Shown one piece after another: positions 24,789 to 29,255 of a DNA stretch of 64,000 bases. The notes below the pieces were generated by a model. The model did no database searches. It was not told where the DNA came from and saw only the letters and a program-made list of their open reading frames with translations. The translations under genes and the position numbers were made by a program. Source of the stretch: an uncultured Candidatus Melainabacteria bacterium (GTDB lineage: Bacteria > Cyanobacteriota > Vampirovibrionia > Gastranaerophilales > Gastranaerophilaceae); assembly GCA_947364235.1 (NCBI GenBank), contig CANARY010000004.1:1-64000 (forward strand), given 5' to 3'. Positions within the stretch are counted from its first letter, which is position 1; every line of letters starts with the position of its first letter.

Positions 24789-26291
24789 ATGAAAGTAAAT
24801 GGGTTAAGTAATAATATAAACTTTAAAGGACCGCTTGACGGGATGGTGACTGGCGCTCTTAGAGCTTGTGATATGAATGAAATGGTTAACGCAGTCGGGC
24901 TTGATGTTGGTGCGATGGTTATTCCAAGGGCTTATTATGATACAAAAGCAAGGAACGAGTATGCAGGAGCTGAAACATTTATTCGTGAAGCGAGCGGAAC
25001 TTTTATCAACTGTCTTTCTGCGGGTTTATTTGCAATGGGGATTTCAAAAATTGCATCTAAGCGTATTCAGCCTGAAATTAAGGTAAATCCTGACAGCTGG
25101 TATTCTGCAGAGTCTCTTGGAGCTTTGAAAAAAGCTTGGGATAAAACCGGCAATCTTGACGGTTATTTGAATAAAGTGCTTGAAAGCATTTCTGGAAGGG
25201 ATGTAAATAAAGTTAATGAGTTAAAGAATATTTGCTGGCAAGATGTTGAATGGGTTGATGAAGCACGCTGGGAAAAGATTAAATGGGACAATCAGGGGTA
25301 TAGAGGGGTTCAAGACAAGCTGAAAACTAAAGCTGATTTTATCAATACTTTTAAAGAATTAATAAGAGACGAAAATATCACAAAAGATGACAAGAAATGT
25401 GTTTTATCAATAATGGAGAAGCGCCTTGCAAACGTACTTGGAGCTGAAAGAGATACTGCTTTAAATGTTGACGGGGTTAAGCTTTCTGCCAAGCTTGAGA
25501 ATATATTGCGTGATACTCATGATATGGGAAAGGATGTTTTTACAAAACACAGCTCAAAAGAAATTGAACAAATAATTAATAAAACTTTGAAAGTGAATAA
25601 AGTTAAAGCTTTTGGAGCAATTACAGCGTCTTGTATTTTGGGGCTTACAAATCAGGCTTTGAATAGAAAGATTACAGAAAAGCGTACCGGCGTGAAAGGT
25701 TTTGTTGGTGATATAGGCTATGGAACAGAGGGCGCTTGCGCCCGTGAAGACAAATATTTATCAGCCAAAAAAATCGGCGCAAGCGCCCTTATGATTGCGC
25801 TTATTTTTGCAACGATGGGGGTAAAAAACTTCAAAGAGTTTGCGAATAAGCTTCAGTTTACAGGTCCGATTACCGGCGGCAACGCGATTAAAACTGTTTA
25901 TGGGGCTACAATTGTCGGCAGATTTCTGGCAGCGGATAACGGGACAGAGCTTAGAGAGTCTATGACAAGAGATTATTTAGGGTTCTTAAACTGGCTTGTG
26001 TTTGGCGGTTTCTTTGCAAAAGGAGCTGCAAATCTTCTGGATAGAAAAGGTCAGAATTTGTTTAACTACACAAAAGAAGGTAAAGGGTTGAAGCATTGGT
26101 TTAATGATATGAGCTTGAAGACCCATAATGAAATTGCATCTAAAGGAAGTGAGTTTGCGAAGAAAAATATGTGGAAGCTTAATGCTGCGCAAGCATCAGG
26201 GATTGCGTATTCTGCTGTTACGCTTGGAATTCTGCTTCCAATGCTGAATGCAAAAGTTACAGAGATGAGGGCAAATAAGAAAAAGTATTGA
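24789..26291 (+). CDS. Multi-pass membrane protein, lineage-specific
   Basis: 500 residues. The N-terminus carries the 'NINFKGPLDG' motif, which also appears in the protein at 37080. Hydrophobic segments occur near 50-68, 275-292, 335-350, 400-420 and 465-485 (SGIAYSAVTLGILLPML). The central part is charged and helical. There is no recognised domain or catalytic motif. GAAAGG precedes the ATG. Expression may be gated by the leader and terminator upstream. Confidence 0.65.
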   Translation: MKVNGLSNNINFKGPLDGMVTGALRACDMNEMVNAVGLDVGAMVIPRAYYDTKARNEYAGAETFIREASGTFINCLSAGLFAMGISKIASKRIQPEIKVNPDSWYSAESLGALKKAWDKTGNLDGYLNKVLESISGRDVNKVNELKNICWQDVEWVDEARWEKIKWDNQGYRGVQDKLKTKADFINTFKELIRDENITKDDKKCVLSIMEKRLANVLGAERDTALNVDGVKLSAKLENILRDTHDMGKDVFTKHSSKEIEQIINKTLKVNKVKAFGAITASCILGLTNQALNRKITEKRTGVKGFVGDIGYGTEGACAREDKYLSAKKIGASALMIALIFATMGVKNFKEFANKLQFTGPITGGNAIKTVYGATIVGRFLAADNGTELRESMTRDYLGFLNWLVFGGFFAKGAANLLDRKGQNLFNYTKEGKGLKHWFNDMSLKTHNEIASKGSEFAKKNMWKLNAAQASGIAYSAVTLGILLPMLNAKVTEMRANKKKY

Positions 26292-26316
26292 TAAACTAAT
26301 TTTAATTTGGTATAAT
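26288..26316 (+). promoter_or_regulatory. Consensus promoter of the mini-ORF locus
   Basis: TTGATA overlapping the preceding stop codon, a 17-base spacer and TATAAT. It is among the best sigma-70-type promoters in the window and points at the structured small gene. Confidence 0.78.
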
Positions 26317-26398
26317 ATACTGGCATATTAAAAAAAGAATATAGGCAAAAGATTTTGATTATTATTTCGCTGATTTCATAAACGAAAGGAGGTGTAAA

Positions 26399-26470
26399 AT
26401 GATAATCATTATCAGCGAAAAAGAACTACTGATATTAATATCAATAGTTCTTTGGCTACAATCCCATTAA
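26399..26470 (+). CDS. Tiny hydrophobic peptide (23 aa)
   Basis: The ATG follows AGGAGG by seven bases, an almost perfect ribosome site. The peptide is MIIIISEKELLILISIVLWL plus QSH, a single hydrophobic helix with three charged residues near the N-terminus, as in type I toxins and small membrane peptides. The message is highly folded: TTTCGCTGAT before the ribosome site can pair with ATCAGCGAAA after the start, and the frame contains a 28-base near-palindrome at 26424-26451. The function is inferred only from this design. Confidence 0.55.
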   Translation: MIIIISEKELLILISIVLWLQSH

Positions 26471-26480
26471 TTTGGGAACG

Positions 26481-26520
26481 GGCTTGGGTATTAAGGCTAC
26501 CCTTGCCTGTATTCTTATTT
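26481..26520 (+). terminator. Hairpin and T-rich end of the mini-ORF transcript
   Basis: GGCTTGGGTA and TACCCTTGCC pair except for a TT/TT bulge, loop TTAAGGC, followed by TGTATTCTTATTTT. A smaller hairpin TCCCA/TGGGA at 26462-26477 spans the stop codon just before it. Confidence 0.55.
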
Positions 26521-26600
26521 TAACGCATTTAAACAAAATTTCAAGTCTTGTGTTTTTCTTTGATGTATAATTATCTCATAGAAATTTAGAGGGATTAATT

Positions 26601-29255
26601 ATGCTAAAAGGAAATGAAATCAGACAATTATATTTAGATTATTTTAAAAACAAACATCAGCATACTATTGTTGAAAGCTCAAGCCTTGTTCCGGATAATC
26701 CTACTGTGCTTTTGACAACAGCGGGTATGCTTCAGTTCTTGCCGATATTTTTGGGGATTACAAAATCACCTTACGACCCTGCCAGAGCAGCTTCTTGTCA
26801 GAAATGCGCGCGTGCGGGTGGCAAAGATTCTGATATTGAAAACGTTGGAAGAACTCCAAGGCATCATACTTTTTTTGAAATGCTTGGAAATTTTTCTTTT
26901 GGCGATTATTATAAAAAAGAAATTATTCCTTGGGCTTGGGAATTTGTAACAGAAGTTTTGAAGCTTGATAAAGACAGACTCTGGATTACAATTTTTGAAA
27001 CAGATGACGAAGCTTTTGATATCTGGAGAAGCATAGGAGTTCCGGCTGAGCGTATTAAAAGAAAAGGCAAAAAAGATAACTTCTGGGGGCCTCCTGGCGC
27101 TTCAGGTTCTTGCGGACCGTGCTCAGAAATTCACTATGATTTGGGTGAAGAATACAAATGTAATCATCCAAACTGCGGTATCGATACCTGCGAATGCGAT
27201 AGATGGGTTGAGATTTGGAACTTAGTATTCACAGAACTTTATCAGGATGAAGAAGGAAATCAATCACCTTTAGAAAAGAAAAATGTTGATACCGGCATGG
27301 GCTTGGAACGTATTACTATGGTTTGTCAGGGGGTTGCTTCAACTTTTGAAACTGACCTTTTAAAGCCTATTTTAGATAAAGTTTCTGAAATGAGCGGTGT
27401 GCCTTACAAAAAATCTGAGAAAACCGATGTATCTCTGCGTATCATTACAGACCACGCAAGATGTGTTTCTTTCTTGATTTCTGACGGTGTAATTCCTGGT
27501 AACGAAGGTAGAAGCTATGTTTTAAGAATGATTTTGAGACGTGCGCTTAGACACGGCAAAATTTTAGGAATGGAGCTTCCGTTCTTGTATAAACTTGTTG
27601 ATACAGTGGTAGAACATTACGGCGAAGCTTATCCGGATTTAGTTAAAAATAAGGCGAAAATTGTTGATGTAATTAAAAAAGAAGAAGAACGTTTTGCTAA
27701 AACTCTTGATAGAGGATACAAAATGCTTGACGAATTTATCGCTGAAAAGAAAGATATTGACGGAGAAAGCGCGTTTAAACTTTATGATACTTACGGATTT
27801 CCATTTGAACTTACAAGAGAAATTGCAGAAGAAAATAACTTGAGGGTAAATGAAGAAGGCTTTAAAGCTGCTATGCAGGAACAAAAAGAACGTGCTAAAG
27901 CTGCAACAGAGAAGATTTCTGTAACAGGAGATATTAAATACGCAAAAGTTGAAGAACAAGTCGGCTCGACTGAATTTGTCGGATACCTTGTTGATTGTGC
28001 TCAGGCAAAAATTCTTGCTTCAATCGAAGGCGATGGATATGTTGATATCGTGCTCGATAGAACTCCTTTCTACGCTGAATGCGGCGGTCAGGCTGGTGAC
28101 AGCGGTTATATTGTTAATGAAAACTTAAAAGCAGAAGTCTTAACAACATTTAAAGTTAACCACCTTTTTGTTCACAGATGCCAGGTTGCTGTTGGTGAAG
28201 TTAATATTGGTGATTATGTTTTTGCGCAGATTGATTCAGCAAGACGTGCGCAAATTAGAGTGCACCACACTTCTGCTCACTTGCTGCAGGCTGCTTTAAT
28301 TAAAGTTCTGGGTGATGAAGTTAAACAAGCAGGCTCTCAGGTTGAAGAAAACAGAATGAGATTTGACTTTACTTTTTCACGTGCTATGACCCCTGATGAG
28401 ATTGTGAAAACTGAAAAAATCATGAATAATTGGATTGGTGAAAAACTCCCTGTTAATACTGAAGTTATGGATATTGAACAAGCAAAACTTACAGGGGCAA
28501 CAGCTTTATTCGGTGAAAAATATGAAAATGTTGTAAGGGTTGTATCCATAGGCGGAGCACACCATTGCGCTTCTTGCTCAGGTGAATGTAATTGTTCTCA
28601 TGAAGATGAAGAAGAAAAAGAAGTAATCTCAAAAGAGTTTTGCGCAGGTACTCACGCTTCTAATACAGCAGATTTGAGACTTATTAAGATAGTATCTGAA
28701 GGCGCAATTGCTGCTGGAACAAGAAGAATCGAAGCTGTTGTTGCAGATGCAGCGATTGAGTATTTAAACAATAAAGCAAAAATTTCGGATACACTTGAGG
28801 CAAGATTTAAAGTTCATACAGCAGAAGTACTTGAACGTGTAGAAAAACTTGCTGAAGAAAATAAAGAACTTCAAAAAGAACTTGAACGCACTAAAGCTGA
28901 AATGGCAAAAAGCAAGTTTGCAACATTTGTGTCTAAAGCTCTAGAAATCGAAGGCGGAAAATTATTTGTTACAAAGATTGAAAATTATGATGCTGATGCA
29001 ATAAAAGCTGGTATTGAACTTCTTGCTAATAAACTGGGAGAGAGCATAATTGTTCTTGCAAGTGAAAAAATGGTAGTTGTAAAAGTATCTGACAGCTTTG
29101 TAAAAAAAGGTATTAATGCTGGAAAGATTGTTGGAGAAATTGCAAGATTTACAGGAGCAAACGGCGGAGGAAGACCGAATTTTGCTCAAGGCGGTGTAAA
29201 AGACGCTGGTAAGCTTGATGAAATTCTTATAAAAGTAGAAAATGATTTAAAATAG
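26601..29255 (+). CDS. alaS: Alanyl-tRNA synthetase
   Basis: 884 residues, full length. The aminoacylation domain begins 'MLKGNEIRQLYLDYF' and has 'RTPRHHTFFEMLGNFSFGDY' and 'GMGLERI'. The editing domain has the zinc set 'HHTSAHLL' and 'FCAGTHASNT'. The C-terminal oligomer domain ends with 'GGGRPNFAQGG'. An unusual Cys-rich insert 'HHCASCSGECNCSHEDEEE' lies before the CxxxH site. It charges tRNA-Ala in the cytosol. A -10 box at 26566 and GAGGG before the ATG suggest its own promoter; no T-box is seen. Confidence 0.97.
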   Translation: MLKGNEIRQLYLDYFKNKHQHTIVESSSLVPDNPTVLLTTAGMLQFLPIFLGITKSPYDPARAASCQKCARAGGKDSDIENVGRTPRHHTFFEMLGNFSFGDYYKKEIIPWAWEFVTEVLKLDKDRLWITIFETDDEAFDIWRSIGVPAERIKRKGKKDNFWGPPGASGSCGPCSEIHYDLGEEYKCNHPNCGIDTCECDRWVEIWNLVFTELYQDEEGNQSPLEKKNVDTGMGLERITMVCQGVASTFETDLLKPILDKVSEMSGVPYKKSEKTDVSLRIITDHARCVSFLISDGVIPGNEGRSYVLRMILRRALRHGKILGMELPFLYKLVDTVVEHYGEAYPDLVKNKAKIVDVIKKEEERFAKTLDRGYKMLDEFIAEKKDIDGESAFKLYDTYGFPFELTREIAEENNLRVNEEGFKAAMQEQKERAKAATEKISVTGDIKYAKVEEQVGSTEFVGYLVDCAQAKILASIEGDGYVDIVLDRTPFYAECGGQAGDSGYIVNENLKAEVLTTFKVNHLFVHRCQVAVGEVNIGDYVFAQIDSARRAQIRVHHTSAHLLQAALIKVLGDEVKQAGSQVEENRMRFDFTFSRAMTPDEIVKTEKIMNNWIGEKLPVNTEVMDIEQAKLTGATALFGEKYENVVRVVSIGGAHHCASCSGECNCSHEDEEEKEVISKEFCAGTHASNTADLRLIKIVSEGAIAAGTRRIEAVVADAAIEYLNNKAKISDTLEARFKVHTAEVLERVEKLAEENKELQKELERTKAEMAKSKFATFVSKALEIEGGKLFVTKIENYDADAIKAGIELLANKLGESIIVLASEKMVVVKVSDSFVKKGINAGKIVGEIARFTGANGGGRPNFAQGGVKDAGKLDEILIKVENDLK

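Follow-up and report, generated by a model that had tools for sequence, protein, structure and literature searches.

A candidate family of chromosomal type I toxin–antitoxin modules among the Gastranaerophilales

What is a gene of 23 codons, wrapped in heavy RNA structure, for? The question is raised by a locus at positions 26288-26550 of the first 64,000 nucleotides (nt) of contig CANARY010000004.1 from an uncultured Candidatus Melainabacteria bacterium (here the window, meaning that whole stretch), where it is flanked by an upstream gene that ends at 26291 and by alaS, which begins at 26601. The original prediction, made from the letters of the window, saw in it a mini-gene in the style of a type I toxin or of a small-RNA locus. 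That view is now supported by further copies, by conservation of both the peptide and the RNA structure, contrary to the outcomes named as refuting it, and by a conserved antisense promoter, and the locus very probably represents a new, chromosomally encoded type I toxin–antitoxin family of Gastranaerophilales. As read from the sequence, an mRNA of about 200 nt would carry a conserved Shine-Dalgarno (SD) sequence and an open reading frame (ORF) of 22-27 codons for a single-helix hydrophobic peptide, and two helices, one joining the ends of the RNA and one between the 5' untranslated region (5'UTR) and the start of the ORF, would place the ribosome site in a closed loop.

A search for other copies, which had been suggested with the original prediction, finds seven in the window's own genome, the other six being 70-74% identical to the window copy (an eighth row of that search was the palindrome matching itself and not a copy). 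Relatives were gathered by a DNA search over 57 related genomes and with a covariance model, R1, and the 94 distinct close relatives from related genomes, of the window copy's own type, are termed subtype A. The first extraction gave 44 copies, of which 40 form alignment A1, without L031, L024, L010:1-252 and L041, which are truncated or have damaged 5' parts; 35 of these form alignment A2 and model R1, without L007, L019, L025, L038 and L042 that have 5'UTR insertions. The insertion of about 33-36 nt shared by L025, L038 and L042 immediately follows the 5' arm of the helix that joins the RNA ends, and that in L007 and L019 places a CCTCC facing the SD, apparently a second masking route.

Within the genus, model R1 finds the locus in 35 of the 65 genomes, and within the order at E<=0.01 in 94 of 383, a figure that includes some weak near-threshold matches, with about four chance matches expected. 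Among other genera, the weak matches turned out to belong to a diverged subtype B of unchanged plan, and 27 of 30 subtype B copies (without L092, L093 and L177) gave alignment A3 and a second model, R2. The two subtypes are homologous, since R2 re-finds the A copies of the window's genome at 7e-9. At E<=1e-4 R2 extends the family to 162 of the 383 genomes, in 33 of 52 genera and in families f1, f2, f3 and f6. In a sample of the phylum (386 genomes, 142 genera) R2 matches 85 genomes, every match being inside the same order, and R1 matches 36, all in family f1. An exact pattern search in named genomes returned 32 stretches, and those titles that name a group read Candidatus Gastranaerophilales, Candidatus Melainabacteria or uncultured cyanobacterium, with the sole exception of a stretch labelled Brachyspira, which is probably mislabelled. 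The order is placed by NCBI in Candidatus Melainabacteria, and its bacteria are uncultured and of gut and rumen. Tandem pairs and one triple occur among the copies, and two loci in family f2 genomes (L097 in G040, L098 in G034) belong to a distant variant that is longer, its ORF having about 40 codons, and that resembles the other copies at the 3' end.

Heavy RNA structure had been claimed for the locus, and the predicted RNA of the window copy indeed reaches -70.9 kcal/mol, where dinucleotide shuffles average -33.7±3.8 (z -9.7). The reverse strand likewise folds strongly (z -9.05) because of the inverted repeats, and so a single-sequence fold cannot tell which strand acts. Conservation and covariation over 35-40 aligned copies were examined, and from these it is clear that the structure of the locus is not due to chance. 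Over the three helices of A2, 96.5% of cells are paired, changes on both sides occur in 12 of 25 pairs (6.0±1.1 after shuffling), covarying cells number 62 (17.9±2.9) and the covariation score is 0.210 (0.101±0.006), whereas slid registers are 33-45% paired with at most one covarying pair; a count of further pair types is at shuffle level (18 vs 18.4). Helix 1, formed by a 21-nt end-to-end inverted repeat (90%) that closes the whole RNA and had gone unnoticed in the original prediction, has 99.1% of cells paired and five of ten pairs covarying. Helix 2 is the palindrome within the ORF (92%, five of ten pairs); it had been described as a near-palindrome of 28 bases, and it is present, with 34 nt as its actual length and arms that are 95% complementary. 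Helix 3, the 3' hairpin, is 100% paired with two of five pairs covarying. In subtype B the palindrome covaries too (four of eight pairs, 94.9% paired), and for the whole B structure covarying cells are 69 against 28.0±4.4 shuffled, with no excess of pairs changed on both sides (9 vs 7.5±1.2). A predicted subtype B helix between the SD itself and the 3' end has 97.9% of cells paired, with one-sided variation and no covariation.

The pairing said to close a loop around the ribosome site stands as first described, the arms being exactly complementary in the window. Its position varies between copies, so that counting over an alignment would miss this helix, and duplex energies were compared: the 5'UTR segment binds the ORF start of its own copy at -14.7 kcal/mol, those of other copies at -11.6 and shuffled partners at -6.7 (Wilcoxon p 2e-12). 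In minimum-energy folds the SD is enclosed by the 5'UTR/ORF-start helix in all 73 copies that the script could segment, out of 84 with a detected ORF, and the end-to-end helix is also present in 64 of the 73. A masked ribosome site, as in type I toxin mRNAs, is therefore found in the predicted folds.

The ribosome site and the hydrophobic ORF of 23 codons were likewise correctly placed by the original prediction, and the evidence that the ORF is used comes from the relatives. An ORF of 22-27 codons was detected in 84 of the 94 subtype A copies, with an SD-like motif in 81 of these 84 and with ATG as the start in 79 and TTG in five. The window peptide has one hydrophobic run and no alanine, and at 23 residues it is a short hydrophobic peptide (<60 residues) of the kind made by type I systems. 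Variability is lowest at codon position 2 (0.38, 0.19 and 0.32 at positions 1 to 3), and the mean Kyte-Doolittle hydropathy of residues 10-20 in 80 copies is 3.36 in frame, the two other sense frames giving 0.10 and -0.88; over most of residues 11-18, I, L, V, M, A, T and S take each other's place. The peptide also has a conserved charged patch, E-K-E-L, and E9-L10 appears invariant across the 80 ungapped copies, partly by construction, since selection of these copies required E at position 9 and L or S at position 10. One copy (L028) has an insertion of one whole codon, and the subtype B peptide keeps I-[TS]-E-K-[EA]-L followed by a hydrophobic run, though its 5'UTR differs.

Directly downstream of the locus and on the opposite strand is a promoter, TTGAAA-16-TAAAAT, that the original prediction did not contain. 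An antisense transcript had been proposed as a thing to look for, and what has been found is its conserved promoter and a terminator-like end, both known here from sequence. The promoter scores at least 9/12 in 89 of the 94 subtype A copies (mean 9.70 vs 7.58 shuffled) at an offset that is constant in 86, and in 29 of 30 subtype B copies (mean 10.77, TATAAT in 28); with position-fixed scoring it reaches at least 9 in 84 of 91 full-length A copies. The sense promoter, which fully bears out the near-consensus claim in the window, is less conserved (at least 9/12 in 64 of 94 A copies, mean 9.07 vs 7.96 shuffled). For the predicted antisense RNA the in-frame palindrome also provides a terminator-like end, a T-run (at least five T in 8 nt) following it on the antisense strand in 76 of the 93 A copies examined (of 94) and in 14 of the 15 B copies that the script could place (of 30). 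So bounded, the predicted antisense RNA would face roughly two thirds of the ORF together with the stop codon and the mRNA 3' hairpin, and the fold of 26413-26510 has -38.4 kcal/mol (z -6.57).

The features of the window copy are collected in Table 1. The hairpin described as covering the stop codon is there, with the stop in its loop. The terminator-like 3' hairpin is present too, with a T-rich tail: followed by TGTATTCTTATTTT, it is probably a weak terminator, with 7-12 T in the 14-nt tail (82/94 copies examined). The upstream gene's stop codon (26289-26291) falls within the −35 box of the sense promoter (26288-26293).

Table 1. Features of the locus in the window (coordinates of the window; strand as given)
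Feature	Position	Strand	Details
Sense (toxin mRNA) promoter	26288-26316	+	TTGATA-17-TATAAT; consensus score 11/12
5' arm of end-to-end (5'-3') long-distance helix	26328-26348	+	core GAATATAGGC at 26337-26346
5'UTR segment pairing with ORF start, loop closed around the SD	26356-26374	+	holds TTTCGCTGAT at 26365-26374
SD	26385-26392	+	AAAGGAGG
ORF for 23-residue hydrophobic peptide	26399-26470	+	MIIIISEKELLILISIVLWLQSH; ATG at 26399, TAA at 26468-26470
ORF-start arm of ribosome-site hairpin	26411-26420	+	ATCAGCGAAA
Predicted antisense RNA, about 95 nt	26415-26510	-	three hairpins; both ends from promoter position and fold
In-frame palindrome	26420-26453	both	+ strand, mRNA hairpin; - strand, terminator-like hairpin then TTTTT for predicted antisense RNA
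Hairpin with stop codon in loop	26463-26476	+	
3' hairpin and T-rich tail	26480-26522	+	probable weak intrinsic terminator of mRNA
3' arm of end-to-end long-distance helix	26503-26523	+	core GCCTGTATTC at 26505-26514
Antisense (putative antitoxin) promoter	26517-26544	-	−35 TTGAAA 26544-26539; 16-nt spacer; −10 TAAAAT 26522-26517

Quite how such a locus might work can be proposed. The full-length mRNA would be made translationally silent, with its ribosome site in the closed loop. From the better conserved of the two promoters an antisense RNA of about 95 nt would start opposite the mRNA 3' end, stop at the palindrome in the ORF and pair with the 3' half of the mRNA, leading to a block of translation or to decay. 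With inverted repeats at both ends of the locus, the antisense RNA would begin almost like the mRNA, and the mRNA 3' end could be contested between this start and the 5' end of the mRNA itself. Exhaustion of the antisense RNA, or trimming of the mRNA 3' end, would then allow the peptide to be made, which may act on the cell's own membrane.

Several observations weigh against a translated toxin held under antisense control. The pN/pS ratio, obtained from 80 of the 84 ORF-bearing copies, is 0.63 for the ORF itself; the two remaining sense frames give 0.81 and 1.17 and the three antisense ones 0.69, 0.74 and 0.88. At 0.63 it is only moderately low and as a test on its own is weak, which is to be expected since the RNA structure constrains silent sites as well, and the chemical conservation of the peptide is the stronger sign of coding. 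The lack of in-frame stops follows by construction, ORFs having been required. Ten subtype A copies have no ORF detected within the filter. Among these, two (L061, L067) stop at codon 18, with TGA in place of the window peptide's Trp codon 19, leaving a peptide of 18 residues; two (L134, L010) are cut by contig ends and are intact on inspection; in L083 the ORF continues beyond 27 codons; and five (L041, L044, L101, L123, L149) are decayed, with damage to the start, the SD or the frame. An intact ORF and an intact antisense promoter are not significantly associated in 91 of the 94 copies, three shorter than 300 bases being excluded (counts 77, 5, 7 and 2; p 0.14), because almost every copy has the promoter, broken ones included: it still scores 9/12 or more in three of the five decayed copies (L101, L123, L149). 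A simple consensus scan of the locus sees no terminator, both terminators being weak by that measure, and the shuffle controls for covariation ignore relatedness among the copies.

The same evidence bears on other readings of the locus. A non-toxic small membrane peptide, for instance a signal or a membrane-protein regulator, made from an mRNA under the control of a cis antisense RNA, is an unlikely account. In its favour, the E-K-E-L patch could be a binding face, copies adjoin housekeeping genes, and the toxicity of the candidate toxin is a prediction. However, a constitutive regulator would hardly be expected in diverged multiple copies per genome, each with its antisense promoter, which is rather the type I pattern, and patchy presence within the genus, decayed copies and layered translational masking also speak for a toxin. 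A structured non-coding RNA with no translated peptide would fit the strong covarying structure and the strong folding on both strands, but is very improbable and was rejected in its plain form on the coding evidence, namely the ORF, the SD and the hydropathy; the near-constant SD and start codons, replacement of hydrophobic by hydrophobic residues, a most conserved codon position 2, the one-codon insertion and a peptide pattern kept in subtype B under a different 5'UTR all argue for translation.

Two further readings take their support from the ends and the position of the locus. The 21-nt inverted repeats could be the ends of a miniature inverted-repeat transposable element (MITE), with which scattered multiple copies and absence beside alaS in 14 of 14 relatives agree, yet the homology does not end at the terminal repeats and extends past them to the −35 boxes on both sides, constraint acts on the ORF, SD and helices inside, and sites common to many copies from several species indicate vertical inheritance. 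The MITE reading was rejected on these grounds and retains only a slight probability. A leader peptide or attenuator of alaS is suggested by the window copy, which lies 56 nt upstream of that gene and in the same direction, but this is the least credible reading and is contradicted by the distribution of the element: it is found beside alaS in none of the 14 relatives (nor is a relative of the window's upstream gene), so that alaS is incidental, other copies adjoin unrelated genes, and the peptide holds no alanine for a leader of this kind. A type I toxin–antitoxin module stays the preferred reading.

No known family was recognised in the original prediction, and this holds. Rfam gives no match of the locus at gathering score (best E 0.2, far below gathering scores) and in a scan of the whole window reports two tRNAs only; Pfam gives a sub-threshold Sarcolipin match to one relative only (E 0.036); and no family of NCBIfam, PHROGs or PADLOC matches the locus. 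The ldr, ibs and hok families are multicopy or tandem type I toxins with short hydrophobic peptides and structured mRNAs, traits that the locus shares, while having no Rfam or Pfam match to any family. The txpA/RatA and bsrG/SR4 type I systems of Bacillus have a single-helix peptide, as here, in toxins that are longer than 23 residues and unrelated in sequence, and we know of no antitoxin terminator in them made by a palindrome inside the toxin ORF.

A likeness in plan is seen with aapA/IsoA of Helicobacter, for which several chromosomal copies, a 225-nt toxin mRNA whose 5' and 3' ends interact over a long distance, an antisense RNA of 80 nt and a ribosome site masked by local hairpins during transcription are described (PMC6733600). 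The present locus resembles it in being multicopy, in the end-to-end helix 1 of the mRNA and in its masked ribosome site. In contrast, the −10 box of the aapA3 antitoxin was mutated there with the amino-acid sequence kept, which places that promoter inside the ORF (PMC6733600), whereas here it is downstream of the ORF and so the locus is not filed under aapA/IsoA. The peptides too differ in length, 30 residues for aapA3 against 23 here, and Pfam and NCBIfam give no family match for the present one. With msoT1/msoA1 of Microcystis aeruginosa the locus has in common that both are candidate type I systems of the cyanobacterial lineage; that toxin has 63 residues and two predicted membrane helices, against 23 residues and one hydrophobic run here, and the term "long-distance" is absent from the text of that paper (PMC12390103). 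According to the same paper, of 2025, type I systems were previously confined to Proteobacteria, Firmicutes and Tenericutes, and msoT1/msoA1 is given there as the first outside these (PMC12390103). In the literature searched no description of one in Melainabacteria or Gastranaerophilales was found; two papers mention both Gastranaerophilales and toxin–antitoxin, and neither, to judge by its listing, concerns such a system. Should the type I reading be right, the range of these systems would widen to Gastranaerophilales (162 of 383 sampled genomes), more than 100 natural variants of one compact design would be at hand for studying how an RNA encodes, hides and silences a peptide, and there would be a specific pair of transcripts to seek in gut metatranscriptomes.

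As to their setting, the copies of the window's own genome sit among ordinary chromosomal genes, and no integrase or phage gene was recognised in their flanks as judged by eye. A phage or plasmid origin was rejected, an exact 21-base pattern having no match in IMG/VR and a plasmid search giving none; a phage search gave one chance-like match of 35 bases, and a search of viral contigs with the protein of the upstream gene gave none. Recurrent sites are seen among 95 flank sets, 16 copies following one gene family and 12 preceding another, and six copies each precede what we take to be a prmA-like and a lipA-like gene. About 400 nt downstream of one copy in the window's own genome (G000:C3:46956-47132) lies a two-gene pair (L004:2107-2798) that resembles a HEPN/minimal nucleotidyltransferase toxin–antitoxin system, type VII-like.
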